A stretch of DNA of 39,112 nt from a virus: positions 1 to 39,112 of IMG/VR virus record IMGVR_UViG_3300036835_000392; one strand, written 5' to 3'. Below are positions 2,821 through 24,587 of this stretch, one piece after another. Numbering within the stretch: position 1 is the stretch's first letter; every line of letters starts with the position of its first letter. Position numbers and translations under genes: made by a program. The notes beneath the pieces were generated by a model, which saw only the letters and a program-made list of their open reading frames with translations, had not been told where the DNA came from and did no database searches.

Positions 2821-3852
2821 ATGACCCAAGCGATTGAACGCGCCGACCTGCCGGCGCTCAGCGTCAAGCGGCAGGCGTCGAACCTGGCCCAGGTGACCGG
2901 CTTCAACGACCGCGTCATCCAGCTGATCCGCCAGACGATCTGTCCTGGTGCCACGGCGCTGGAGCTGGCGACGTTCCTGTACAACGCGCGCCGCCTCGGG
3001 CTGGACCCGATGACGCGGCAGATCTACTTCATTCAGTACGACCGCAACTCACCCGGCGAGATCGTGGTGGGCATCAACGGCTACCGCGCCCAGGCCGAGG
3101 AGAGCGGCTGCTACGCCGGCTCCGATGAGGCGGTCTACGAATACGAGGACGTCGGCCAGCCGAAGGGTGCGCCGTCGAAGGCGACGGTGACGGTGTGGAA
3201 GATCGTCGCTGGGCAGCGTGTGCCGTTCACCGGCTCGGCACGCTGGACCGAGTTCTACCCGGGCGAGGGCAAAAAGGGCGAGCAGTACCGCAAGCGCCCG
3301 CACAACCAGTTAGCCATCCGCGCCGAGTCGCACGCGCTGAGAAAAGGCTTTCCGCAGCAGACGGACCGACTACAGGTGCAGCCGGCGCCTGGCGCGTGGG
3401 AGGAGGCCGCCGCCGCGGACGAGCGGGTGCGCGACGACCCGGCGAAGATCGCGCGCGACGCGCGGACCTACGACCAGGTGTACGCCGCGGAGGATGACGT
3501 GGTCGTTTCTGGCGATCACGTCGTTGATCGACAGACGGGCGAGGTGCTCTCGCGAAGCACCGAGCCAGCAAGCGCTCAGGACCTCACCGCACCTGAGGCG
3601 TCGGGTGCGGCGGCGGACCCCGCATCTCCGTCGCCGGCACCACCCGAGCAGCTGGTCGACAAGTACCGCCGCAATCGGGAGCTCGTGCGCCGCGCCCGTG
3701 AGCTGCACCTCGACGGCTTCGAGCCGCTGGCGCTCGGCAAGGCGGACGACGTCGTCGAGGCGGCGAACTTGGAGCTCGAGGACAGAATCGCGCGGTTCGA
3801 GTTCGAGCACGGCGAGGTCGAGCGGCAAAGAGCGAGCGAGGGGCTGCTCTGA
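2821..3852 (+). CDS. bet: Bet/RecT-family single-strand annealing protein
   Basis: A 343-residue recombinase. The N-terminal 200 residues hold Bet-family patterns: ELATFLYNARRLGLDPMTRQ, IVVGINGYRAQAEESG and HALRKGFPQ. These proteins anneal complementary single strands in phage recombination. The C-terminal third is a variable Ala/Pro/Glu-rich tail with a final helical segment, longer than the usual Bet length of about 260. A strong GGAGGA sits 5 bases before the ATG, one of the best ribosome binding sites in the window, so high expression is likely. The VRR-NUC protein upstream is its possible nuclease partner. Confidence 0.88.
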   Translation: MTQAIERADLPALSVKRQASNLAQVTGFNDRVIQLIRQTICPGATALELATFLYNARRLGLDPMTRQIYFIQYDRNSPGEIVVGINGYRAQAEESGCYAGSDEAVYEYEDVGQPKGAPSKATVTVWKIVAGQRVPFTGSARWTEFYPGEGKKGEQYRKRPHNQLAIRAESHALRKGFPQQTDRLQVQPAPGAWEEAAAADERVRDDPAKIARDARTYDQVYAAEDDVVVSGDHVVDRQTGEVLSRSTEPASAQDLTAPEASGAAADPASPSPAPPEQLVDKYRRNRELVRRARELHLDGFEPLALGKADDVVEAANLELEDRIARFEFEHGEVERQRASEGLL

Positions 3853-5363: not shown

Positions 5364-5788
5364 CCCGCGGTGTCGCCCACCCACCGGAGTTGCGCGCCCA
5401 GGTCCTCGCCGCGATCATCGCCGGGGCCACCATCAACGACGCCGCGCGGCGCTTCAACCTGGACACCGGGCTGGTCTCGCGCTGGGCCGCCGCGGATGCA
5501 GCAGTTGCAGCAACGCGTGCAAACGCTCGCAGTCCCGAGGCGCTGGAGGCGATGCTGTTTGACCTCGTCGCCGAGCACATCACGACGCTTCGCGCTCAGC
5601 TTCAAGCGGCCGCCTCCCATGCCTACGTTCAGGGGCAAACCGCCGGAGACCTTGCCGCCTTACTGGGCGCCGAGCGGGATACGCTCATTCGACTTCTCGC
5701 CGGATTCCGACCCGTCAGCGACACGGAGCCGCTCGAGCTCGCTGCAACTGCCGAACCCGCACCCGGCCCAGGCGCAGATGATCGCTGA
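5360..5788 (+). CDS. Probable small terminase subunit (HTH protein)
   Basis: A 142-residue protein with an N-terminal helix-turn-helix (residues about 6-40: LRAQVLAAIIAGATINDAA, RRFNLDTGLVSRW), a central coiled segment (about 55-100) and an Ala/Pro tail. This architecture and its place directly before the large terminase fit the DNA-recognition subunit of the packaging motor. A transposase-like HTH protein is the main alternative. The end of the gene overlaps the start of the large subunit by 11 bases in a different frame. Confidence 0.62.
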   Translation: MTRGVAHPPELRAQVLAAIIAGATINDAARRFNLDTGLVSRWAAADAAVAATRANARSPEALEAMLFDLVAEHITTLRAQLQAAASHAYVQGQTAGDLAALLGAERDTLIRLLAGFRPVSDTEPLELAATAEPAPGPGADDR

Positions 5789-6986
5789 AGCGAGGCGTTT
5801 CAATGTGGCCGCCTGCGGCCGGCAGATCGGGAAGACGACGCTCGGCATCAACCGTGTCGCGGACATCGTCGAGCGCCAGCCGTGCGCCTGGATGGCGCCG
5901 ACGTACAAGTACCTCGAGGAAGTGTGGCGTCACCTGCGCCAGGTGCTCGCGCCAATCACGGTCGAAAAGAGCGAGCAGCAGCACCGCATCGCCACGCGCG
6001 GTGGGGGCTCAGTCGAGTGCTGGTCGCTGGACGATCCGGACGCGGCACGCGGCAGAAAGTACCGCCGCATCGTCGTTGATGAGGCGGCACTTGTCCGCGA
6101 TCTGGACAGGGTCTGGCAGGCAAGTCTCAGGCCAACCCTGAGCGTGCTCGGCGGCGACGCGTGGTTCCTGTCCACGCCGAAAGGACTGGACGCCTTCCAC
6201 GGGCTGTACCAGCTCGGCCAGGACGCGCTGCAGTCCGAGTGGATGTCGTGGCAGATGCCGAGCTCCGCGTCACCCTACATCCGTGCCGAGGAGATCGAGG
6301 CGGCGCGGCGCGAGCTGCCGGAGCGCATCTTCGCCCAGGAGTACCTGGCCGAGTTCGTCCAGCTCGAGGGCGCCGGTGTCTTCCGCGGCGTGCACGCCGT
6401 CTCACGCTTGCAGCAGCACGGGCCCGAACGCGGCCACCAGTACGTGTTCGGCGTGGACTGGGGGCGCACCAACGACTTCACCGCCATCAGCGTCATCGAC
6501 GTGACGGTCGGCGAGCAGGTCGCGCTGGACCGATTTTCCGAGATCGACTACGAGTACCAGTCCGAACGGCTGCACATGTGGGCCGACCTGTACCACCCGC
6601 TGCAGATCGTGGCGGAGGCCAACAGTATGGGCGGTCCGCTCGTCGAACGCCTACAGACCGGCTACGCGCGGCTGGTGGGCAAGCCGCGCGCGGCGCTGCC
6701 GATCTATGCCTGGACCGCGACCAACGCGAGCAAGGCCGCAGTCATCCAGAGTCTGGCGCTGGCGCTCGAGCAGGGCCAGCTGACGCTGCTGGACGACCAG
6801 GTGCAGCGCGGTGAATTGCTCGCGTTCGAGTCGAGCGTCACGGCGACCGGCATGGTGCGCTACTCGGCGCCGGCCGGACTGCATGACGACTGTGTCATTG
6901 CTCTGGCACTCGCGCACCTGGGCGAGTCGTTCGAGGGCGCTCCGCGCGGCCGGAGCTCGTACCGCTTCGCGGCCGGGCGACGGTGA
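5778..6986 (+). CDS. terL: Terminase large subunit
   Basis: Packaging ATPase and nuclease, 402 residues from ATG 5778. Walker A is GRQIGKTT (Lys19), Walker B is IVVDEA, and a coupling motif FLSTPKG follows. The RNase-H-like nuclease part shows Asp in FGVDWGRTNDFTA and the acidic pair in GLHDDCVIALA. The frame stays open upstream and the in-frame residues L-Q-L-P-N-P-H-P-A-Q look like the true family N-terminus, but the only upstream start is ATG 5619, deep inside the small subunit gene. The start is therefore uncertain and a CTG near 5742 is possible. Confidence 0.9.
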   Translation: MIAEARRFNVAACGRQIGKTTLGINRVADIVERQPCAWMAPTYKYLEEVWRHLRQVLAPITVEKSEQQHRIATRGGGSVECWSLDDPDAARGRKYRRIVVDEAALVRDLDRVWQASLRPTLSVLGGDAWFLSTPKGLDAFHGLYQLGQDALQSEWMSWQMPSSASPYIRAEEIEAARRELPERIFAQEYLAEFVQLEGAGVFRGVHAVSRLQQHGPERGHQYVFGVDWGRTNDFTAISVIDVTVGEQVALDRFSEIDYEYQSERLHMWADLYHPLQIVAEANSMGGPLVERLQTGYARLVGKPRAALPIYAWTATNASKAAVIQSLALALEQGQLTLLDDQVQRGELLAFESSVTATGMVRYSAPAGLHDDCVIALALAHLGESFEGAPRGRSSYRFAAGRR

Positions 6987-7650: not shown

Positions 7651-7668
7651 ACGCCGTCTAGCCGGCGT
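7651..7668. terminator. Hairpin between convergent HNH genes
   Basis: ACGCCG at 7651-7656 pairs with CGGCGT at 7663-7668 around a 6-base loop, in the gap where two HNH genes converge. There is no U-run, so factor-independent termination is unproven. The nine-base word CGTGAAACA appears twice just downstream. Confidence 0.35.
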
Positions 7669-7695
7669 GAAACATCTCGCGTGAAACACTGAGCG

Positions 7696-8193
7696 TTACA
7701 CTGGGCGCATCCTGGGTTTACGCCGACCGCGGACCACGACGTCGCGCGCATTGTCCACGGGAGTCCCGAGATAGAGATGCGCGGGGTTGACGCACGCCGG
7801 CACATCGCACGTGTGGCACACGTACATCCCCTCAGGGATGGGCCCACCGTTCGTCAGTATCCACGCGACTCGGTGAGCACCCACCGGTTGTCGCGCGGTC
7901 ACATGGAACTCGTTGGCCCAGAAGCGCATCGGCAGACGCTTGCGCGCCGCTTCGCTACGGCAGGTGTAGTCGCAGTAGCGCTGCCCGTAGGGGCTGCGCG
8001 ACTCGCTCTTCGGGATGCTGATGCGTTTGTCGCAGTTGCGACAGAAGCTCGTGATGGTGTGGTCGATCGACCAGCACTTGGGGCCGCAGTACTGCCCGCC
8101 GTTCTGAGCAATGCGATACGGCCACTCGCGAAACGACGCGCCGCACGTCTTGCACGTGCACTCAATACCCTGCGTACCCTTAGGTCGCCCCAT
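7696..8193 (-). CDS. HNH homing endonuclease with zinc-finger N-terminus
   Basis: A 165-residue protein on the opposite strand to all surrounding genes. The N-terminal 80 residues hold two CxxC-type zinc modules (Cys14, Cys17, Cys36, Cys40; then Cys51, Cys54, Cys74, Cys78), probably for DNA binding. The C-terminal HNH domain follows the pattern of free-standing phage homing enzymes: AHRVAWILTNG, YVCHTCDVPACVNPAHL with His127, Asn136 and His139, then GTPVDNARD. It lies 85 bases upstream of portal. The first 180 bases of portal are strikingly AT-rich, as if brought in together with this element. Confidence 0.87.
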   Translation of the reverse strand: MGRPKGTQGIECTCKTCGASFREWPYRIAQNGGQYCGPKCWSIDHTITSFCRNCDKRISIPKSESRSPYGQRYCDYTCRSEAARKRLPMRFWANEFHVTARQPVGAHRVAWILTNGGPIPEGMYVCHTCDVPACVNPAHLYLGTPVDNARDVVVRGRRKPRMRPV

Positions 8194-8217
8194 GGACTCA
8201 TCCTCCGTGGTGCCACG

Positions 8218-8245
8218 CCCCCGGTCGTCTCAACCGACGCGGGGG
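8218..8245. other. Hairpin upstream of portal
   Basis: CCCCC-G-GTCG (8218-8227) can pair with CGAC-GC-GGGGG (8235-8245) with one bulged base and a 7-base loop. It lies in the 85-base gap between the divergent HNH and portal genes. No good Shine-Dalgarno precedes the portal ATG. The stem could end transcripts or shape the portal leader. Confidence 0.4.
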
Positions 8246-8278
8246 TACTAGCTGCCCTCAATTGTACTGGATTGCCCG

Positions 8279-10309
8279 ATGGCGGTTGATCGGTCGAAGA
8301 AAGAGTTAAAAGCTCCGACGTCTGAGTACTTAACCAGTTTACAGACAGAATTAGGCGATCTCTATCTCCAACAAGATAACGATATTGACCTGGTCAGAGA
8401 ACAACGAGAAATGCGAAGACCAGCGTTATCTGAGGCAGATAAGGACTATATTTTAGTGCATGTTGATCCGCGCGACCCGGACATTACGGAGGAGGCGTTC
8501 CAGCAGACCGCCATCCTGACCCTCGAGCGCCCGAAGCTGAGCATCGTCGGCGGCGAGGGCGACACGGCGCAGACGGTCGCGTCCAAGCTCGAGCACTTCA
8601 CCGAAGAGACGCTGTGGGAGTGTGGCACGCGCGAGCCAGGATCAGACACGATGACCCAGGTCACCGACGCGACGCTGAACGACGGCGGCGGCTGGGCCAA
8701 GATCCTGTGGGCGTCGGACCTGTGGAGTGAGCGCTACGGCATCCCGGATCCAAGCAAGGACTCGAGCTCGTCGACCGCGGACTACACCGCCTACGACAAG
8801 CTCACCGAGGAGGCCAAGAAGCGCGCCGGTCCGCCGTTCGTGTGGTCCTACGTCGATCCGCGCAAGGTGTACCCGCAGTGGTCCAACGGCTACCTGTGCG
8901 AGGTGCTCGAGTGCTCGCAGATGCCGATGCGCTCGGCGTTCAGGCGCTACCGTCTGGGCTACGACTCGCAGGGCAACATCGTGCCCGAGGAGCTCGGGCA
9001 GTCGCAGAACCTGATCGAGGCCTCGCGCAACATGCTGAGCGCGGTCACCTTCCTCGAGCACTGGGACGACACCTGGGTCAGCTACGCCATCTGCGGCCAG
9101 AACTACAAGGGCGACCCGACGGGCTACATCGTCAAGCAGTTCCGCCACAAGTACCCGTTCGGCGTTCCCTACGACTACGCGCCCGGTCTCACCATGAACT
9201 GGTGGCGGAATCGCAAAGTCGGCTGGGGCATCGGCCGCACCAAGCTGTGGCTGGTCCAGTACCGCCAGTACCTGCGCGCCATGCATGCGCAATACGTGGC
9301 TCGCGACCTGCTCAGTCCGCTGGTCACCTATGGTGAGACGCCGGCCGCCGCGGTGATCGGCGACGACGGTCTGCCCAAGGAAACCGACCCGACGGTCCAC
9401 CCGGGCGAGATCCTGAACCTGCCGCCCGGTCGCCAGCTGCAGCGCATCCAGTACCCGGACGCCGCGACGCTCGAAAAGCACATGAGCCTGATCGACCAGG
9501 CCATTCGCGACCTCGAATCTCCCAGAGTGACCACCCTCAGCGGCATGGAAGGCGCCGGCTTCGCCATCTCGCAGGTGCTGTCGTACTCGCGCACTCGAGT
9601 AGGGCCTGTACGGCATGGCATCGAGTCGCTGCTCAAGGGCCAGACGGAAAAACTGTGGGCGCTGATCCGCGACCGCGCGGGTGAGAAGGTGTGGGTCTTC
9701 TCAGGTGGCGTCGACGTTGGCTCGGGGACGCAGGTGGCCGAGTTCATTGGCTTCGGGCCCAAGGATCTCGAGCGGCCGATGCGGATCAAGTGGGAGGTCC
9801 AGGCGCAGCTGCCGACCGACGAGATGATCATGGCCCGCTACGCCCACGAGCGCCTCGCCGCCGGCACCTACGGCAAGGACGAGGCGGTCACCTACCTGGG
9901 CGACAACCCCGACGAGATACGGCGCAGCATCGCCCGCGATCGCATCAGGGCCTCCCCGGCCTACCAGAAGTGGCTGGACGCGGAGGTGTTCATGGAAGCC
10001 GGCCGCGGCGACATGCTGCAGAAGGCGCAGGACGCGGAGCAGCTCGCGCTCAACGGCCAGGTCCAGGCAGGCCTGCCGCCCGGCGGGCCCCCAGGCCAGC
10101 AGCCGCAGCCCGGCGTGTTCGAAGGTGGCGGACCCGGCGCGGGTGGCGTGCCTGACCTGGCCGCGCTGGCCGCGGCGCCGAACGGTGCTGGCGTTGGGCC
10201 GCCAGCATACGGCCAGGTCATCGGCGGCACACAACAACCAGGTGGGACCCTGCCGCCGGGCGGCGTTCCCTACGGGCCGCAGGGACCGGCGGCACCAGGA
10301 GGTCGGTGA
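8279..10309 (+). CDS. Portal protein
   Basis: A 676-residue protein directly after terminase in the packaging order. The N-terminal part (LREQ-type helix, then LERPKLSIVGG and a long alpha/beta region) and the central stem region (YRQYLRAMHAQYVARDLLS, GEILNLPPGRQLQRI) fit large short-tailed-phage portals. The C-terminal 90 residues are a Gly/Pro/Gln-rich tail. Codons 1-60 are abnormal: by hand count GC is 78 of 180 bases (43%) at 8281-8460, against 38 of 60 in the next block, with TTA, AAA, GAT and ATA codons that are rare later. That boundary follows the antisense HNH gene. Confidence 0.85.
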   Translation: MAVDRSKKELKAPTSEYLTSLQTELGDLYLQQDNDIDLVREQREMRRPALSEADKDYILVHVDPRDPDITEEAFQQTAILTLERPKLSIVGGEGDTAQTVASKLEHFTEETLWECGTREPGSDTMTQVTDATLNDGGGWAKILWASDLWSERYGIPDPSKDSSSSTADYTAYDKLTEEAKKRAGPPFVWSYVDPRKVYPQWSNGYLCEVLECSQMPMRSAFRRYRLGYDSQGNIVPEELGQSQNLIEASRNMLSAVTFLEHWDDTWVSYAICGQNYKGDPTGYIVKQFRHKYPFGVPYDYAPGLTMNWWRNRKVGWGIGRTKLWLVQYRQYLRAMHAQYVARDLLSPLVTYGETPAAAVIGDDGLPKETDPTVHPGEILNLPPGRQLQRIQYPDAATLEKHMSLIDQAIRDLESPRVTTLSGMEGAGFAISQVLSYSRTRVGPVRHGIESLLKGQTEKLWALIRDRAGEKVWVFSGGVDVGSGTQVAEFIGFGPKDLERPMRIKWEVQAQLPTDEMIMARYAHERLAAGTYGKDEAVTYLGDNPDEIRRSIARDRIRASPAYQKWLDAEVFMEAGRGDMLQKAQDAEQLALNGQVQAGLPPGGPPGQQPQPGVFEGGGPGAGGVPDLAALAAAPNGAGVGPPAYGQVIGGTQQPGGTLPPGGVPYGPQGPAAPGGR

Positions 10310-10410
10310 TGGCCAAGAATTGGATACAGGGCGCGATCAGCAAGCTCCTTAGTGGTGACATCGTGAACGTCCTTTGCTTCGGCCCGGGACCTCGATACCC
10401 CAAGCTCTGA
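10309..10410 (+). pseudogene. Stranded 5' fragment of the 10911-11087 gene
   Basis: Starts at an ATG overlapping the portal stop (TGATG), exactly where the next operon gene should begin, and encodes MAKNWIQGAISK before running into unrelated sequence and a stop after 33 codons. The intact gene at 10911 begins MAERWISKAIKQ, clearly the same protein start with different bases. The fragment is best explained as the original gene start cut off by insertion of the antisense LAGLIDADG gene, whose 3' end overlaps it. Confidence 0.7.
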
Positions 10411-10891
10411 GTGCCCGGCCGACATGAGCGTGGGCACCAGTGCGAAGGCCGAGACGCTGAACGATGCAACGAGCACTATGGCCGCCTTGCCACAGTTCGA
10501 TGATTGCGTCCTTGCGTTCATCCCAAACGCTGTACCGCTCGCGATTGATCCATTCGACCGCTTGCCTGAGTGCCGCCTGTTTGGCTGGACTGTGGAAGCC
10601 GACTTCGCGCGCGAATGTCAGGATGTCGTCTTGACGAGCGATATACAGGCTGTGCAGGGGCTTGTGCTGAGGGGGTCGTGGCAGACGAGATTGGAACGTG
10701 AAGTAGTGGATGCCAAGGGCGTGGAGGTATTGCTGACAGGTTTCCATCAAAACCATGTCAGTGTTGAACACGACCGCGTAAACCGACTGGGCTCCGCCGT
10801 GCGTTTTCCGCTCGTAACGCTTGAATCGCATGCTGCCCTCGCCATCGAAGAACCCACGAAGCCAGCCGCGTATGAACTGGATATCTTCCAT
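10349..10891 (-). CDS. LAGLIDADG homing endonuclease (antisense)
   Basis: A 180-residue protein on the minus strand within the plus-strand head operon. Residues 9-20, GWLRGFFDGEGS, are a LAGLIDADG helix with the catalytic acidic residue. Only one such motif is clear, so a homodimer is likely. The C-terminus (about 120-165, DAIIELWQGGHSARCIVQRL) looks like an added helix-turn-helix for DNA recognition. It sits exactly between a stranded gene start (10309) and a re-made gene start (10911), the mark of an invading homing gene. Confidence 0.85.
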   Translation of the reverse strand: MEDIQFIRGWLRGFFDGEGSMRFKRYERKTHGGAQSVYAVVFNTDMVLMETCQQYLHALGIHYFTFQSRLPRPPQHKPLHSLYIARQDDILTFAREVGFHSPAKQAALRQAVEWINRERYSVWDERKDAIIELWQGGHSARCIVQRLGLRTGAHAHVGRALRAWGIEVPGRSKGRSRCHH

Positions 10892-10910
10892 AACTTAGGA
10901 GAACCATAAT

Positions 10911-11087
10911 ATGGCGGAGCGCTGGATATCCAAAGCCATAAAACAACCGGGTGCGCTGCGCAAGACGCTCGGCGCCAAGCCCGGCAAGCCGATCCCCGCG
11001 GCGAAGCTGGCGGCCGCGGCGAAGGGCAGCGGTGTCACCGCCAAGCGTGCGCGTCTGGCACAAACGCTCAAGAAGCTCAACAGTTGA
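10911..11087 (+). CDS. Small conserved phage protein with re-made 5' end (58 aa)
   Basis: A basic protein with the pattern WI..AI..PGALRKTLGAK, IPAAKLAAAAK and RARLAQTLKKL, which I recognise as a short conserved phage protein often found beside portal or head genes. Its molecular role is not known to me. The first 14 codons use A/T-rich choices (ATA, AAA, CAA) while the rest is GC-rich, and the N-terminus duplicates that of the fragment at 10309. AGGAG at 10898-10902 provides a ribosome binding site. Confidence 0.75.
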   Translation: MAERWISKAIKQPGALRKTLGAKPGKPIPAAKLAAAAKGSGVTAKRARLAQTLKKLNS

Positions 11088-14600: not shown

Positions 14601-17600
14601 GGCACGGGCACTCCTGCTGATAGTGCCGAACTGGCACGCCTGCAGGCCGACCAGACCCAGCTCAGCGCGGCGCATGAGGCGATCTGGGACCACGCGGGCG
14701 GGGGTGGCGACGTGTACGCACGGCCTCCCGCGAGCGAAGGCGTACCCTTCCAAGGTGGACTGGACGCCGGAGCAGCGCAAGCGGCTCGAGGACTTGCACC
14801 AGAGAATGCTCCGCCGACAAGCGGCCGCAGCGAAGCGGGACCAGGCGTTTCAGGTCCGTCAGGCGCGCCAGAACCCACCGCACGCGCCGAGTCCGCCCAG
14901 CCAGAACTAGCTGGTTTCCGTCTGCCCGAGACGACTACCCCGCTGCAGGACGTTGGGCCGCAGGCCACCCGTGTCACACAGGTGCCGACAGTCGATGACC
15001 TGGCACAACGTCTCCGTAGCCGCACCGGCAAGCCTGGTGTGAGCATCGAGCCGTACTACGCCGGTGCGCTGGGCGACCAGCCCGCCTTCGGCAAGAACGT
15101 CGTCTACCGTGACGGCAATGGGCAGGTGCAGGGCGTCCTGCAGATGCTGCTCGATGAGAACGGCCAACCGGACAGCCTGTCGGTCGCCGTCAATCCCGCC
15201 CGTCAGCGGCAGGGCATTGCTACCGCGCTGTATGACGCGGCCAAAGCCGCCGGTTATGACGTCGAAAAGGCGAGCGGAGCCAGCGGGTATACCCAAGAAG
15301 GTGCCGCGTTCGCACGTGGCCGCGGGGCAAAAGCGCCAGCAACTAGGCCAGAAACGGCTGCGGCGCCCGCTACGGGCGGCGTGGGCCGACCGAGAGCGAC
15401 TGGTGGCGAGCCTGTCGAGGGCCTGCCCGGCGTGGTGCGACGCACCGTGCGCGGCGTCGAACCGGGTGCGCCGCGCAACATCAGCGAGGTCGTCAGCAAC
15501 CCGCACCTGCTCGAGGAAGCACGAGCGGGTGCGCCGTCGATGACCGACGAAGAGCTCGGCGCGCATTACGACCAGTTGGACCAGCGCTATCAAGCCAACC
15601 AGGACCGCCTGGCGGCCATCGACGAGCAGTTGCGCAACCCGAACCAGAAGCCCGAGCGCCCGCCGTGGGGTGCCGGCTGGACAAACGATCAGCTGGTTAC
15701 GCTCGCCAAGCGCCAGGGTGTGAGCGCCTACGAGCCGCTGTGGTGGGAAAAGGTCGGGCTCGAGTCGGGCTCGGGCGAGGTGCGCGAGGACGTCGGTCAG
15801 TCCGGTCTCGCGCGTGGCATGGGCCGCGCCGCTCGCGAGCCAACGCCGACCGAGCTCCGGTCCGAGCGCAACCAGCTCGCGCAGGACAACGTGCACATTC
15901 AGGCCGCCGCTGACCAGCTCGGCAACGCCCAGCCAGGACAACGCTTCGCACGCCGTGCGGAGACGACCGCGGCGTTGCCGTTCGCCGGTGGCGAGGAGGG
16001 CGCGCGGCACGGCGCGTTTGCGACCGAGCAGCCGGGTGATTCACCCGGCACGCTCGCGACCGACATCGTCACGCGCAACGGCACCAAGGACTACGGCTCG
16101 CCGCTGAACGGGCTGCGCGAGGAACCCGGCCAGGTCGTTGGCACCAGGGGCGGCGTCACAGGCCGTGGCATCAGCGATGTCGAGGCGGCTCGTGTCGGAG
16201 CACCGTCTGAGGAGACGCTGGCGCGCATGCCGAACCTGGACGCCATGCTCAAGGGCGACATGCCCGAGGTCCGGGCGCAGATCCAGAAGGCCGCCGAGGA
16301 CAACCCGGCGCTGTTCGATGCCTACCGCCAGGGGCGTATCTCGCACGAGTCGCTGGTCCAGGACCTGGCGACCAGGGTCGGCATGACGCGCGAGGAGTGG
16401 CTGAAGACGCCGGTCGGCAAGGGCTTCAACCAGGACGAGATGGTCGCGCTGCAGGCCGCGGCGATCGACGCGCAGGTGCGCTCGGAGCAGATGGCCAAGG
16501 ACATCGCAGCGCGGGGTGGCGTGGACGCGCTCTCACCCGAGCAGGTGGCCTATGGGCTGAACGAGCTCGTCGACAACTCGCGCCTGCTGAGCGTGGCTCG
16601 AGGCGGTCGGTCAACGGCTGGGCGCACGCTGAACGCGCTCAAGATTCGGCTGGACGCGACGCTGGCCCGCGGCATCACCGCCGGCAACGAGCGCATCGTC
16701 GCGCAGCGCACTGCGGCCCAGGCACGCGCGGCGACCCGTCGCGCCGCGGAGCTGCTGGACAAGACGCGCGACCTCGAGACCGAAAAGCAGGCCGTGCTGG
16801 CGCGCATGCGCGGCTACCAGAACATCCCCGAGGAGCGCCGCGCCCCGGTCGGACCAGGCACCCAGGAAGGTATGCCAGGGACGCCGCCGCCGACGACACG
16901 ACCGGCGCCCGTGTCGAAGAGCATCCTGGACCAGATCGCCGAGGCCTACGACCAGCTGGACCGCTACCAGGCGATGACGCTGCACGAGAAAGCCGACGAT
17001 TTTCTCAAGCTCAAGCAAGCACGCGACGAGGCGGCGGCCAAACGCAAAGCGGCGACGCGCGAGGCGCCGCAGGAGCTGCTGAGTGCCTTGCGCCAGGAGC
17101 TCGCCGCGGAGCGAACCAACTTTGCCAAGCGCAAAGACACCTGGGAGACGATGGCGTTCTGGGACTCGAAGGCCAACGAGAACGTCGTCGCCAAACGCAA
17201 CGCCTTCCGCGGCGGGCTGTACATCGAGCAGTACCGCAAGTCCGCCGAGCTCGCGGCCAAGGTGGCCGAGGCGAATGCCAAACGTGCATTTGACCTTGAG
17301 TCTCGGCGCCAGGAGGTGCAGACCAAAAAGGCCAGCGCGCTGCTCGAGGCGGTCGGCGGGGCCAAACCGTCCAGACAACTCCTCGACGAGTACACCAAAG
17401 CCGTCACATCCGACGACCCGTACGCGCCGGCCAAGTTCATCAAGGGGCTGCAAGATCCTGGCTGGTGGGGCAAGGCGCAAATTCTGAGGATCGCCGGGCT
17501 GCTGAGCTCCACGGTGACGCACATGGTCAACTCGGTCGGCAACCTGAGCCAGGTGCCGCTCGAGCTCGCGACGCACGGGCTGACGGTCGGGATCGACTGG

Positions 17601-19262
17601 GCGCGTGCCGCGGCGACCGGCGGGCAGCGTCAGGCGTACCTGGCCGAGCTCGGCCCGATGCTCGAGGCCTACGGACCAGGGTTCGTGTCCAAGATTCCGG
17701 AGGCGGTCAACATCCTGCGCACCGGCGTGACGCCGGTGGATGCGGCGAGTCTCGAGAAGATCCGACCTGGCTTTGCCTCTGGCTCGAACGTCGTCGACGC
17801 AGCCGTGGAGATGCCGCTGCGCGCGCTGCAGGCCGAAGACGAGCTGTTCCGCGGCGGCGGCTTCGCGATGCAGGCCAACCGTGTGGCGACCAGGTACGCC
17901 TACCGTGAAGGCTTCCGCGGCGCGCAGCTTCGCGGGCGGACCGCGAACATCGTCCAGAACCTGGAGAGCTACCCCGACCTGTATAGCGAGGCGCACAACG
18001 CCATGCTGCGGATGGTCTTCCAGGAGCACCGCGACTGGATACCGCAGCCGCGGGGCGCGGTCGCACGGGGTGCGCTGGCGCAGCCGCTGCCGTTCATCAA
18101 GACGCCGGCCAACATCACCTCGCAGGGGCTGGGACTCTCACCGTTCGGCGTCGCCGGCACCATCGAAGCGGTCAATGCGCGTCGAGCGCTCCAGACCGCG
18201 GGGCGGGCGACGGAGGCGCAGCTCGGACGCGCGACCCTGCTGGCCGAGCAGCGATTGGCGCGGACGGCGATCGGCACGGCGATCTTCGGCGCCGGCGTTG
18301 GGCTCGGTGCCGGTGCATTCTCGGGCGGCAAGAGCATGCTGACCGGTGCGTATGATCCCAACGAAGCCAGCACGTATCCGCAGGGCTGGCGCGAGTGGTC
18401 GGTGGTGACCGAGGACCCGGTGAGTGGCAACACCTACTTCGTGCCGATGCAAAACTTCGGCGCCGCGGGTGCGCCGCTGGCAATGGCGGCGATCGTGACC
18501 GACGCCGGCAAGCGGGGCAAGTCCATCCTGGACCCCGAAGAGATGGCGCGCGCGTCGACGGCGATCGGTCAGTACGTGCTGGATAACACGTTCTTGCAGG
18601 GGCTGTCGGACACGGTCAACGTGCTGCACGAGCCGAGCAGGTACGGCCAGAAGTTTCTCGAGGGACTGGCCGCCAGCTACGGGCCGTACTCGGCGATGGG
18701 GCGCCAGATTCAGCGTGCCTACGGCGTCGCCTCGCGCAACCCGCACGACGGGTTCATGGGCCTGGTCGAAGCGATGGAGGCCAACTACCCAGGCCTGTCG
18801 GGCAATGTGCCAGAGTCGCTGACGCCGCTCGGCGAGCCCCGTTCGCAGGGCATCAGTGGCGCCGCGGCGTTTGCGCTGCCGCTGCGGGCGGACATCCTGC
18901 GCGACGAGCCGACGCTGCGCGCCCTGCGCGACAACGACGTCAGGATTCCGCCGCCGGCCAAGGCGGTCAACGTCGGCAACGGCTGGTCGATCGACCTGAC
19001 GCCAGAGGAGCAGGACCAGCTGCAGCGCGCGCGGGGCGCGCAGATCATCGACCAGGTGAGCCGTGTGCAAGACTTGCCGCTGTACAAGAACGGCGACTTG
19101 AGCGTGCGCAACCAGCTGCTGTCGAGGGCGGTCAGCAACGCGTCGCAAAATAGCGACGTGCTGTTCGTGCGCTCGCTGCCTGACGCGGATGTCAAGTCTC
19201 GAGCGGTGCGGCGGGTCGTGCCGACGCCGTACACCGTGGCCGGAGAGGAGCCCGCAGCCTGA
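11640..19262 (+). CDS. Giant polyvalent internal virion protein (2540 aa)
   Basis: A multidomain protein probably carried in the head and injected with the DNA, by analogy with ejection proteins of short-tailed phages. Domains in order: Ala/Gln-rich N-terminus; FlgJ-like glucosaminidase or lysozyme fold (about 187-320, Glu215 in AASESNYGK); C39-like cysteine peptidase (about 340-500, Cys370 in ACGPAA, His450 in PGHYYFADGY); two 45-residue Ala-rich repeats; coiled coils; GNAT-like acetyltransferase fold (about 1150-1230, RQRQGIATALY); a long helical region (about 1620-1930); and a hydrophobic C-terminal part with helices near 1948-1995 and 2206-2228. The segment at 14740-14910 looks coding in another frame, so a two-gene origin or a frameshift is possible. 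Confidence 0.85.
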   Translation: MPGTILLDDLRDSVGNQLGDYVNGLTSTAQAAVAPVGSVFSTPPAAPDANAILQELQQHAQAALEASQQQAQPALQVLGGAQQAAGGAVAQLGQARDQVTQQLQQHVADVTGVGQQLQDHVNTVLGSTAPQAPAGVQSLAKPTPPPVLGTTDQNAPTLGGVSPPPTTEQAPAGGLGPIDASSPSAFARSFAPYAQYAAQKLGIDPTWVAAMAASESNYGKAGGNELFGIKALPGQPGTSMQTHEGEYGGTSMAQTFASYDTPLDAVNAFVDLLKNHYQGAVGAQDLPTFIHGLKQGGYFTAAEPEYLGIVKGITDRIGGDVQAGLQAVGAAPKPPAQVTTAQARASDLGYTDISQFGDKQLSADEAYAACGPAAAVRFAERFGRNPTLREATDLAKQVGWTASGGMAGITSEQKLLANMGVDTHIVAPDWDAIAKEASTGNPVTISTPGHYYFADGYNPQSGAFHVGRSGLDLKGGSEWMTPAQMENLMGKAQGALFADNPNVPAKGATGAALGGTAAGAPAAPITIGGPAPAKAPLYVHGPMQDAEGNDIAGATPIQSAADVVGETVGGAFSGLGTAAQQALAAAQDINRIQPGTEALKAAAPVLGGASAAVNQVAQDVQTAAQGALGAAQDINRLTPGATAVNAAAPVLGGVASDIGAGVQQTAQDLGGSGAANALLRQGRTPAEQTAFEQQQQQELGKIVQQGQQPAPPLDVGDVAHNVWNLVVNSSPGLPGVSLQDYQHASTVKNDWIAQNNPIKDVPVAGELTTQIAQQLTDPYSMVVFGLTGGVGKVPGEVAGERALAATADRLGPAGAKFVGAVADKLTSGAITGAVQNALYAAEQPDATPEQVFTALWQGAGFGAVLEPGLAASTALGRRIGQTIIDQAPRLVDAGLRAVERVSPAEDVFATTRRAGESADDYLARLATEESAGATARTGNPYDLPRSAPEPNAAPLSSEDVLSHLEQLDQQHSQNQARIADLQNQLAAGTGTPADSAELARLQADQTQLSAAHEAIWDHAGGGGDVYARPPASEGVPFQGGLDAGAAQAARGLAPENAPPTSGRSEAGPGVSGPSGAPEPTARAESAQPELAGFRLPETTTPLQDVGPQATRVTQVPTVDDLAQRLRSRTGKPGVSIEPYYAGALGDQPAFGKNVVYRDGNGQVQGVLQMLLDENGQPDSLSVAVNPARQRQGIATALYDAAKAAGYDVEKASGASGYTQEGAAFARGRGAKAPATRPETAAAPATGGVGRPRATGGEPVEGLPGVVRRTVRGVEPGAPRNISEVVSNPHLLEEARAGAPSMTDEELGAHYDQLDQRYQANQDRLAAIDEQLRNPNQKPERPPWGAGWTNDQLVTLAKRQGVSAYEPLWWEKVGLESGSGEVREDVGQSGLARGMGRAAREPTPTELRSERNQLAQDNVHIQAAADQLGNAQPGQRFARRAETTAALPFAGGEEGARHGAFATEQPGDSPGTLATDIVTRNGTKDYGSPLNGLREEPGQVVGTRGGVTGRGISDVEAARVGAPSEETLARMPNLDAMLKGDMPEVRAQIQKAAEDNPALFDAYRQGRISHESLVQDLATRVGMTREEWLKTPVGKGFNQDEMVALQAAAIDAQVRSEQMAKDIAARGGVDALSPEQVAYGLNELVDNSRLLSVARGGRSTAGRTLNALKIRLDATLARGITAGNERIVAQRTAAQARAATRRAAELLDKTRDLETEKQAVLARMRGYQNIPEERRAPVGPGTQEGMPGTPPPTTRPAPVSKSILDQIAEAYDQLDRYQAMTLHEKADDFLKLKQARDEAAAKRKAATREAPQELLSALRQELAAERTNFAKRKDTWETMAFWDSKANENVVAKRNAFRGGLYIEQYRKSAELAAKVAEANAKRAFDLESRRQEVQTKKASALLEAVGGAKPSRQLLDEYTKAVTSDDPYAPAKFIKGLQDPGWWGKAQILRIAGLLSSTVTHMVNSVGNLSQVPLELATHGLTVGIDWARAAATGGQRQAYLAELGPMLEAYGPGFVSKIPEAVNILRTGVTPVDAASLEKIRPGFASGSNVVDAAVEMPLRALQAEDELFRGGGFAMQANRVATRYAYREGFRGAQLRGRTANIVQNLESYPDLYSEAHNAMLRMVFQEHRDWIPQPRGAVARGALAQPLPFIKTPANITSQGLGLSPFGVAGTIEAVNARRALQTAGRATEAQLGRATLLAEQRLARTAIGTAIFGAGVGLGAGAFSGGKSMLTGAYDPNEASTYPQGWREWSVVTEDPVSGNTYFVPMQNFGAAGAPLAMAAIVTDAGKRGKSILDPEEMARASTAIGQYVLDNTFLQGLSDTVNVLHEPSRYGQKFLEGLAASYGPYSAMGRQIQRAYGVASRNPHDGFMGLVEAMEANYPGLSGNVPESLTPLGEPRSQGISGAAAFALPLRADILRDEPTLRALRDNDVRIPPPAKAVNVGNGWSIDLTPEEQDQLQRARGAQIIDQVSRVQDLPLYKNGDLSVRNQLLSRAVSNASQNSDVLFVRSLPDADVKSRAVRRVVPTPYTVAGEEPAA
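13350..13619 (+). repeat. In-frame tandem duplication (135-bp period)
   Basis: Two consecutive copies encode AAQDINR(I/L)-P(G)T-A-AAAPVLGG. The word GCGCAGGACATCAA starts at 13395 and again at 13530, giving a period of 135 bases or 45 residues. The copies differ at many third positions, so the duplication is not recent. Confidence 0.7.
14740..14910 (+). other. Alternative-frame coding signature inside the giant gene
   Basis: In the +1 frame relative to the giant gene this stretch reads AYPSKVDWTPEQRKRLEDL and continues as a charged helix (HQRMLRRQAAAAKRDQAF) to a TAG at 14908-14910. Its codons nearly all end in G or C, as real genes here do. The giant-gene frame over the same bases is an Ala/Gly/Pro linker with mixed third positions. 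It may be a former gene end now overprinted, a programmed frameshift product, or a sequencing frameshift. Confidence 0.45.
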
Positions 19263-23546: not shown

Positions 23547-23822
23547 GTGGCTACGGGCGCGACCGAATTTGTTGATAAGACCATTGCAGATGGCGTTTTC
23601 AGCCCGGATATTTGGTCGAAACAGGTATTACGCGCAACGGAGTCCAACCTATTGTTCGCAAAGAGCGTCAATAGGGGCTTTGAAAACGATGCAAGCGTAG
23701 GCAAAACCGTCAAGGTTGCCAGTATTGGCAACTTGGCAGCGCGCGCGAAGACGGAGAATACCGCCATCGTCTACGAGACTGTGGCTGAGACCGCGACCAC
23801 GATTACCCTCGACCGAGAAGTT
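23547..23822 (+). CDS. Major capsid protein, exon 1
   Basis: Encodes about 92 N-terminal residues (MATGATEFVDKTIADG to TITLDREV). Read-through would hit a stop at 23844-23846 shortly after the intron begins. GTG 23547 follows a good GGGGGT ribosome binding site. Residues such as ATESNLLFAKSVNR and VGKTVKVASI fit coat proteins with an HK97-type fold. Base composition is low here: about 48% GC by hand count at 23521-23700, rising to 62% at 23761-23820. The leader before it (23498-23546) is AT-rich and holds TTAGTGC twice. The exact 3' end is an estimate from protein continuity. Confidence 0.75.
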
Positions 23823-24587
23823 CTGGGGGCACGCCTCGCCGCTTAGGTGAGAGTGACAAACACCGGGTGAACTGTCGGGGACCCTACACATCAAACAGAT
23901 GACAACGAACATGCCGCACATTCACAGCAATGGAACCTTTAGACGCGGCGTGGCTCGCTGGCTTCTGGGACGGCGAAGGAACAATCTCTCTCTATCGCAG
24001 CAGGTGGAAGTGGAAGCCAGACGGGCCGAATACACGTCGATTGCCCAATCACCAGCGGGAGCCCGAACGCTATCGTCCGTTGCTCGCGCTGTCGCACACA
24101 GACATGCCGACGTGCGCCCATGTGGACCAGTTGCTCATGCAAATCGGTGCCAAGCATTACTCGCTGGCGGACCCCAGGGTCGTCCAACCGACCAGGATGG
24201 GCAGGCGTCCACAACGCCACATTTCGGTCATGAGCTTCGTCGGAGCGCGCGTGGTGCTCGAAGTTCTCATGCCGTATCTGGTCACCAAAAAGCCGCAGGC
24301 GGAAGCCCTCTGGCGATTCATCGAAATCGCTCAGTCGCGCGACTCGCATCTGCACTACACCGACGAGCAACGCGAGATCGCACGTTTCCTTCGCACTCAT
24401 CCGATGCATGGGAATCCGCAGCCAAGCCAGGCCGGGGCAGCCTAACGCTGCGTAGCCTGGAAGGTTCAGAGACTAGCGGGTGAGTCCCAACAATAACCCC
24501 GCACTAGCGCCCGGCTCGCGTTCGCAAGAGCGCGATGATGAGATAGTCCGGTCCGTCCTGAAAAGGGCGGGTTGCTGCAATATTTGG
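23823..24587 (+). ncRNA. Group I intron in the major capsid gene
   Basis: The core is recognisable 3' of the enclosed gene. A Q-like AATCCGCAGCCAAGCC lies at 24413-24428 and R-like GGTTCAGAGACTA at 24463-24475. GACTA (24471-24475) pairs with TAGTC (24544-24548) to form P7 in GATGAGATAGTCC, and a P9-like hairpin CCGTCC/GGGCGG follows (24553-24570). The 5' part includes AAACACCGGGTGAAC. It interrupts the capsid frame between TITLDREV and SYAALGIED; exon frames match if the length is a multiple of three (765 as drawn). Splice sites are inferred from protein continuity, since no convincing P1 pairing was found. Confidence 0.75.
23930..24445 (+). CDS. Intron-encoded LAGLIDADG homing endonuclease
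   Basis: A 171-residue protein inside the capsid intron. Residues 8-17, WLAGFWDGEG, are the LAGLIDADG motif. A second degenerate helix may lie near VLEVLMPYL. The C-terminal codons (HGNPQPSQAGAA) overlap the conserved Q/P6 strand of the intron core, so protein and ribozyme share sequence there. Intron enzymes of this class cut intron-less alleles at the insertion site; here the target would be the capsid gene of related phages. ATG 23930 is the first start in frame. Confidence 0.85.
   Translation: MEPLDAAWLAGFWDGEGTISLYRSRWKWKPDGPNTRRLPNHQREPERYRPLLALSHTDMPTCAHVDQLLMQIGAKHYSLADPRVVQPTRMGRRPQRHISVMSFVGARVVLEVLMPYLVTKKPQAEALWRFIEIAQSRDSHLHYTDEQREIARFLRTHPMHGNPQPSQAGAA

Follow-up and report, generated by a model that had tools for sequence, protein, structure and literature searches.

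A Synonymously Recoded Start in a Phage Portal-Position Gene Beside an HNH Endonuclease Gene: The Probable Rescue Half of a Mobile Homing Unit

Introduction

Homing endonucleases must spare the genome that carries them, and the insertion of an intron achieves this by splitting the site. It is less clear how free-standing endonucleases gain immunity when their target is part of a conserved coding sequence; the portal case described here may offer a direct answer, the unit apparently carrying a rewritten version of the target itself.

Several described systems come close to this situation. T-even phages provide an established case of free-standing endonucleases that are coupled to target genes nearby and act with co-conversion: the genes concerned (SegF, SegG, and MobE; such systems include HNH or GIY-YIG genes) lie between conserved genes, mostly intact ones, have their targets in the neighbouring genes, and take their flanks along by co-conversion (PMC2988022). 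Also in T4, a homing endonuclease (PMC5009743; named MobA in PMC2988022) lies beside a change in the essential gene 60 that is thought to protect the carrier; the gene is split there and has a 50-nt insert that is bypassed in translation (PMC5009743). The intron-borne nuclease gp210 of phage PhiPA3 hits gp178, an essential gene of its competitor PhiKZ, and 17 silent mutations made by the authors rescued gp178 from it; here, protection by silent recoding is experimental (PMC11620839). In fungal mitochondria, the so-called mORFs (Glomus, Allomyces; atp6, atp9, cox2, nad3) are ORFs inserted in an essential gene, accompanied by a diverged copy of the severed end and by a native remnant; it is the 3′ end that is replaced, the enzymes are of the LAGLIDADG or GIY-YIG type, and the hybrid gene is kept (PMC3630166). 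Finally, synthetic home-and-rescue gene drives use an engineered Cas9 in insects, with a nuclease that targets an essential gene and a drive that bears a rescue copy (PMC7968924). The literature searched, in which subscription journals were thinly covered, gave no direct report of a phage endonuclease with a recoded gene start or of a naturally recoded phage homing target.

Materials and Methods

By “the window” we mean the whole stretch of DNA analysed, an IMG/VR-type phage record (IMGVR_UViG_3300036835_000392) of 39,112 bases with a mean GC of 66.2%. Sixty-five portal relatives were pulled from IMG/VR using peptide patterns, which are independent of codon choice. Recoding was also searched for in the conserved genes of 58 related contigs, where 596,770 windows of 30 codons were scanned for their GC3 deficit relative to orthologues; a tract was called strong at a deficit of at least 0.40, which left 14 non-duplicate tracts.

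Results and Discussion

A Low-GC Start in the Portal-Position Gene

A sequence-only reading of the window had pointed to about 180 AT-rich bases at the start of the portal gene, ending in a switch near position 8460 within an unbroken reading frame, and to an antisense HNH gene 85 bases upstream. The features concerned are the following:

5370–6986, + strand: large terminase gene (PHROG 2, E 4.7e-38), upstream neighbour of the portal gene
7661–7705, + strand: left-hand boundary of the inserted unit, by the far (3′) end of the HNH gene; in L002, which lacks the HNH gene, it abuts the portal start on the upstream side
7696–8193, − strand: HNH_3 homing endonuclease gene, 165 aa (Pfam HNH_3, E 4.7e-11)
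8194–8278, no strand: 85 bases separating the start of the HNH gene from the divergent portal start; shared with L042 and L068 as a conserved region and containing a GC-rich inverted repeat
8279–10309, + strand: portal-position gene, 676 aa
8279–8467, + strand: recoded portal 5′ end, about 63 codons, synonymous (statistical limits 8285–8467)

The portal-position gene has no Pfam and no PHROG match; it was assigned from its place after the large terminase gene and from its 65 conserved relatives. These observations were confirmed. GC is 43.3% at 8280–8459 against 67% at 8460–8639, and the stretch 8285–8464, at 41.7%, is the minimum among the 180-base windows of the entire 39,112 bases. The ORF 8279–10309 is continuous across the switch, and the HNH gene lies exactly 85 bases before the portal ATG. 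A change-point fit places the low-GC3 segment at portal codons 3–63 (8285–8467), with sharp edges and a GC3 of 0.37 inside against 0.90 outside. The earlier reading had also proposed following GC3 in windows along the genes; across the conserved genes of the 58 contigs, the deficit of the portal tract against its orthologues is 0.60, the second largest found (99.9th percentile, 0.50).

Synonymous Recoding of the Tract

The first 180 portal bases have 58–72% GC in nearly all 65 relatives; an AT-rich start was found only in the window, its identical copy L043, L042, L010, and L068 (43–47% GC where measured). Amino acid identity between the tract and its relatives is 90–98% (about 90–93% for the closest ones), at a DNA identity to the closest relatives of 63–71%, which returns to about 80–93% directly downstream. 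Over codons 20–66, at an amino acid identity of at least 0.9, 65–72% of synonymous codons differ between recoded and native alleles; the mean differences to natives at least 90% identical in amino acids are 0.72 for the window, 0.65 for L042, and 0.66 for L010. Over the same codons, pairs of native alleles reach a maximum of 0.52, even at 40–65% amino acid identity, and recoded alleles differ among themselves at 25–31% of synonymous codons. The alignments thus establish that this gene start has been recoded.

Random synonymous recoding at the tract's own GC3 yields equal similarity to the natives, and no active avoidance of native codons beyond composition was seen; synonymous sites within the tract look saturated. 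Strand-polarised deamination around a cut was rejected, C>A, C>G, and G>C changes being numerous and polarity absent. As the native alleles have a GC3 of about 0.9, any thorough synonymous change is bound to lower GC, and the AT-richness of the tract may therefore be largely a by-product of such change.

One has to consider that the portal piece may instead stem from a low-GC relative outside the sampled set, acquired through homing or ordinary recombination, its recoding never having been selected as such. Its codon choice, no less similar to the natives than random recoding at that GC3, does resemble ordinary AT-leaning usage, and a parallel exists in yeast, where Repar and Warnecke, faced with raised diversity beside mobile introns, weighed two options, error-prone repair or co-conversion during transfer from outside the population (PMC5378118). 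We nevertheless hold an imported copy to be unlikely. The tract's amino acids are 90–98% identical to those of GC-rich relatives, yet a lineage at 75% is just 55% identical there, and arginine and other residues with GC-rich codons have been kept. No low-GC homologue came up when IMG/VR, phage records, and GTDB genomes were searched by peptide, and with the amino acids being those of GC-rich lineages, a low-GC donor is unsupported. The HNH gene itself has a GC of 0.64 and a GC3 of 0.81, so the AT-richness was not carried in by a low-GC gene. Strong tracts at several different sites in different genomes also count against an import. The sequence-only reading had spoken of an “imported or recoded” target: the second word stands, the change being almost purely synonymous and found and moving with the HNH gene, and the first is unsupported.

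Anatomy of the Inserted Unit

The HNH protein carries two Cys-rich motifs ahead of its HNH domain that are likely DNA-binding; a search against solved structures gave no match at E 1. Relative to the 185-aa proteins of L042 and L068, the 165-aa protein of the window has an internal in-frame gap of about 20 aa in the CWLF...GYG region, a part kept by many HNH_3 proteins. Lacking these conserved residues, the window's nuclease may be inactive, a copy past its active phase.

The empty site was defined by comparison with L002 and L009, the HNH gene being absent from most of the 65 relatives. Positions 7661–7715 of the window align with 5951–6004 of L002 at 87% identity (blastn), and the portal gene of L002 starts at 6001. 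In L042 and L068, the native upstream (promoter) region is retained together with the native start codons GTGGCCATCGACCGCTCG (VAIDRS), which are the start codons of L009, and the HNH stop codon comes directly after them; further upstream, the DNA of the two contigs differs. The HNH gene thus interrupts the native portal start behind its sixth codon, and in L042 the native frame runs on into the HNH antisense strand (ORF 2911–3582, beginning MAIDRSLGRHHPG). In the window, the six-codon native remnant is gone. With the native start severed at the HNH stop codon in both contigs, these junctions place the entry of the unit within the portal gene, after codon 6. Judged from the same junctions, the mobile unit is made of the HNH gene, the intervening region, and a complete recoded replacement for the severed portal start.

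A group I intron or an intein at the portal start was considered and rejected: the window has no Rfam match at gathering score, the reading frame of the portal is unbroken, and the HNH gene lies upstream in antisense.

The insertion displaced the native upstream sequence; if it thereby parted the portal gene from its promoter, the AT-rich start could have been selected for translation initiation. The recoded tract, however, spans about 63 codons, far past the initiation region, and similar tracts occur at portal 3′ ends (L027, L036), at a capsid 3′ end (G015), and in mid-gene (L006), which makes adaptation of expression a very improbable explanation.

Descent and Transfer of the Recoded Allele

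Every contig with a close HNH relative (at least 79% identity), namely the window, L043, L042, and L068, has the recoded tract; among about 65 portal starts, only one contig outside these carriers has it, L010. Counting the window and L043 once, the association is 3/3 against 1/~61 (Fisher p 1e-4). All sequences come from metagenome assemblies, and one could suspect an assembly artefact or a chance fluctuation in composition. This has a negligible probability in our opinion: several IMG/VR assemblies contributed contigs with the allele, always in frame, with different flanking DNA and diverged copies, and its occurrence in independent contigs refutes an artefact.

In a tree of the tract, the window, L042, L068, and L010 form a single clade (support 100/100), as expected of a common origin. 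By the rest of the portal gene, the window, L042, and L010 fall in three lineages, and a single clade is rejected (AU p 7.5e-6). A single origin of the tract among carriers of three lineages means that it moved horizontally, and we infer at least two transfers between lineages. Between the window and L042, synonymous codons have diverged by 30% for the tract and by 29% for the HNH gene; this equality fits a tract and an HNH gene travelling together. A single origin would also suit an imported copy.

The equal divergence also bears on the idea that the tract is a mutational scar, left by repeated cutting and error-prone repair, of which purifying selection spared only the synonymous changes; immunity would then be a by-product or absent. 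Error-prone repair is one of the two options put forward for the yeast introns (PMC5378118), and the saturated look of the synonymous sites would suit it. Tract and HNH gene having diverged equally since the split of the window and L042 (0.30 and 0.29), the process is not ongoing in carriers, and ongoing hypermutation is rejected. The spectrum, moreover, is mixed, with many transversions and no polarisation around one point, and the tract edges are sharp. We regard a scar as improbable.

L010 combines native codons 1–9, as in L053, with the recoded tract from about codon 10. Its 8.9 kb contig has no HNH_3 domain, and the rest of that genome may hold the nuclease. Its tract, being the same by descent, fits a resistance allele freed from the nuclease, and L010 reads as an immune allele parted from its nuclease close to the insertion point. 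The comparison of portal 5′ ends with and without the HNH gene, suggested by the sequence-only reading, thus supports the association, all contigs with a close HNH gene being recoded; the counter-case named at the time, an AT-rich start without an adjacent HNH gene, partly exists in L010.

Recoded Tracts in Related Genomes

Eight of the 14 strong tracts have an HNH or LAGLIDADG domain no more than 600 bases away, a proximity shared by 3.6% of the scanned positions (p 8e-9 in a binomial test; p 0.001 when permuted within genomes at 1 kb). The portal 3′ ends of L027 and L036 are recoded, each followed by its own HNH gene and with a mutual difference of 0.64, and the capsid 3′ end of G015 is recoded with an HNH gene adjacent; downstream of these HNH genes, no convincing native 3′ remnants were found. 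The earlier claim of a general pattern of odd edges beside homing genes is therefore upheld as an enrichment and fails as a rule. Adjacency is not sufficient for recoding, as in L007, L022, and L054 the same portal gap is occupied by a different HNH gene and there is no recoding, nor is it necessary, as L006 and some terminase tracts have no endonuclease nearby.

The L006 tract lies in mid-portal, at codons ~308–352 (G004:27662–27749), and is the strongest of all, with a GC3 deficit of 0.63; no other contig was found with the same tract. A second tract of this genome lies in the terminase gene (G004:25410–25497), and both are possibly resistance alleles or scars of lost elements.

The portal genes of two other relatives (L055:521–1327 and L064:6772–7764) are interrupted in frame at codon 267 by an intein (Pfam Intein_splicing, E 6e-11 and 2e-9); through the same insert runs an antisense ORF of 260–322 aa that is nuclease-like by eye, with no confident family match.

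Other Endonuclease-Bordered Genes in the Window

Two further genes of the window border a homing element and had been credited with unusual edges:

10309–10344, + strand: left-behind native start of a small gene, MAKNWIQGAISK (from its sequence and relatives' starts)
10349–10891, − strand: LAGLIDADG_3 homing endonuclease gene within the 5′ end of the small gene (Pfam, E 7.4e-9)
10911–11087, + strand: small gene with a re-made, AT-shifted start, MAERWISKAIKQPGALRK... (from relatives' starts)
23547–23813, + strand: capsid exon 1, codons 1–89 (PHROG major head protein, E 1.5e-7)
23815–24570, + strand: group I intron in the capsid gene (Rfam RF00028, E 3.6e-5, 29.3 bits, below gathering score); the capsid gene resumes at 24.5 kb
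23930–24445: LAGLIDADG-like ORF in the capsid group I intron

The re-made start at 10911 was confirmed, its native counterpart remaining at 10309; the layout of 10309–10911 (native start, antisense LAGLIDADG gene, re-made start) is that of the portal. The low GC of capsid exon 1 was likewise recovered as a weaker dip: its first 180 bases have a GC of 0.49, against mostly 0.52–0.62 in intron-less relatives, and its GC3 deficit is 0.33.

Around the intron site of the window (codon 89), capsid codons 60–100 are recoded in a form common to G003 (L005; also L119/G003) and G011 (L018), both of which have no intron at that site; this allele is a candidate natural resistance allele against intron homing. 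Relatives of the intron's LAGLIDADG-like ORF lie at the same site in G051 and G055. A LAGLIDADG ORF is also found directly upstream of capsid codon 2 in G011 (~16,300–16,970) and G014 (~18,500–19,120), where the junction sequence resembles a group I intron lodged right at the beginning of the capsid gene.

Proposed Mechanism

We consider it probable that the AT-rich portal start serves as the rescue half of a homing unit that is mobile and carries a recoded replacement 5′ end. The antisense HNH gene entered after portal codon 6 and severed the native start, and the unit supplied a full replacement 5′ end, synonymously recoded over its first ~63 codons, so that the portal protein is preserved. 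The recoded DNA would no longer match the stretch that, in unrecoded relatives, is the presumed target of the enzyme. When carrier and relative infect the same cell, the enzyme would cut into the relative's native portal start; with the carrier as the template for repair, the HNH gene and the recoded tract would be copied together, as in intronless homing with co-conversion. The presumptive elements of the scheme are that the enzyme cleaves the native sequence, that the recoded one is immune, and that homing is the route of transfer; the recoding likely shields the carrier from its own nuclease. A tract of ~63 codons is much longer than one recognition site, which counts against this scheme. 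The recoding may have arisen by repeated selection for uncut synonymous variants or in a past mutational burst.

More broadly, we lean, with a good deal of caution, towards a natural home-and-rescue element: its endonuclease gene would enter an essential gene and mend the damage with a synonymously recoded, uncuttable end, the immune allele would also circulate nuclease-free (in L010, possibly in the L005/L018 capsid), and the element would have been reused on the head genes of one phage group. Short, sharp synonymous recoding within a conserved gene could then serve as a sequence signature of present or past homing sites.

Comparison with Known Systems

Like the free-standing endonuclease genes of T-even phages, the portal unit pairs a nuclease gene with a neighbouring conserved gene and with co-converted flanks. 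It shares with intronless homing an HNH domain with likely DNA-binding motifs (about 20 aa of the usual domain edge being absent from the window's copy), a patchy presence opposite an empty site, and horizontal transfer with co-conversion of flanking sequence, indicated by the conflict between tract and gene trees and by equal divergence. Unlike the T4-type genes, it broke its gene after codon 6 and carries a recoded start.

The mORFs are closer in architecture. As with these, the insertion lies in coding sequence and leaves a native remnant (VAIDRS in L042 and L068, not visible in the window), and codons 1–63 form a diverged in-frame copy of the severed end. Unlike in mORFs, it is the 5′ end that is replaced, the enzyme is an HNH protein, the host is a phage in place of a fungal mitochondrion, and the copy is almost purely synonymous to the unit's own lineages. 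The portal unit works like a mORF and is not classed as one.

As with MobA and gene 60 of T4, the neighbour of the homing endonuclease is an altered essential gene, and the alteration is the likely protection of the carrier; it would come here from synonymous recoding with the gene left intact. As with PhiPA3 gp210 and PhiKZ gp178, a nuclease would hit the essential gene of a competing phage and silent recoding would protect from it, the portal recoding being natural where that of gp178 was author-made.

The portal recoding also resembles the recoding of genes by engineers for gene drives. This is an analogy only and implies no relationship (PMC7968924); if our proposal is true, the portal unit would be nature's equivalent of the recoded rescue used in such drives, including their known weakness, the escape of resistance alleles without the nuclease.
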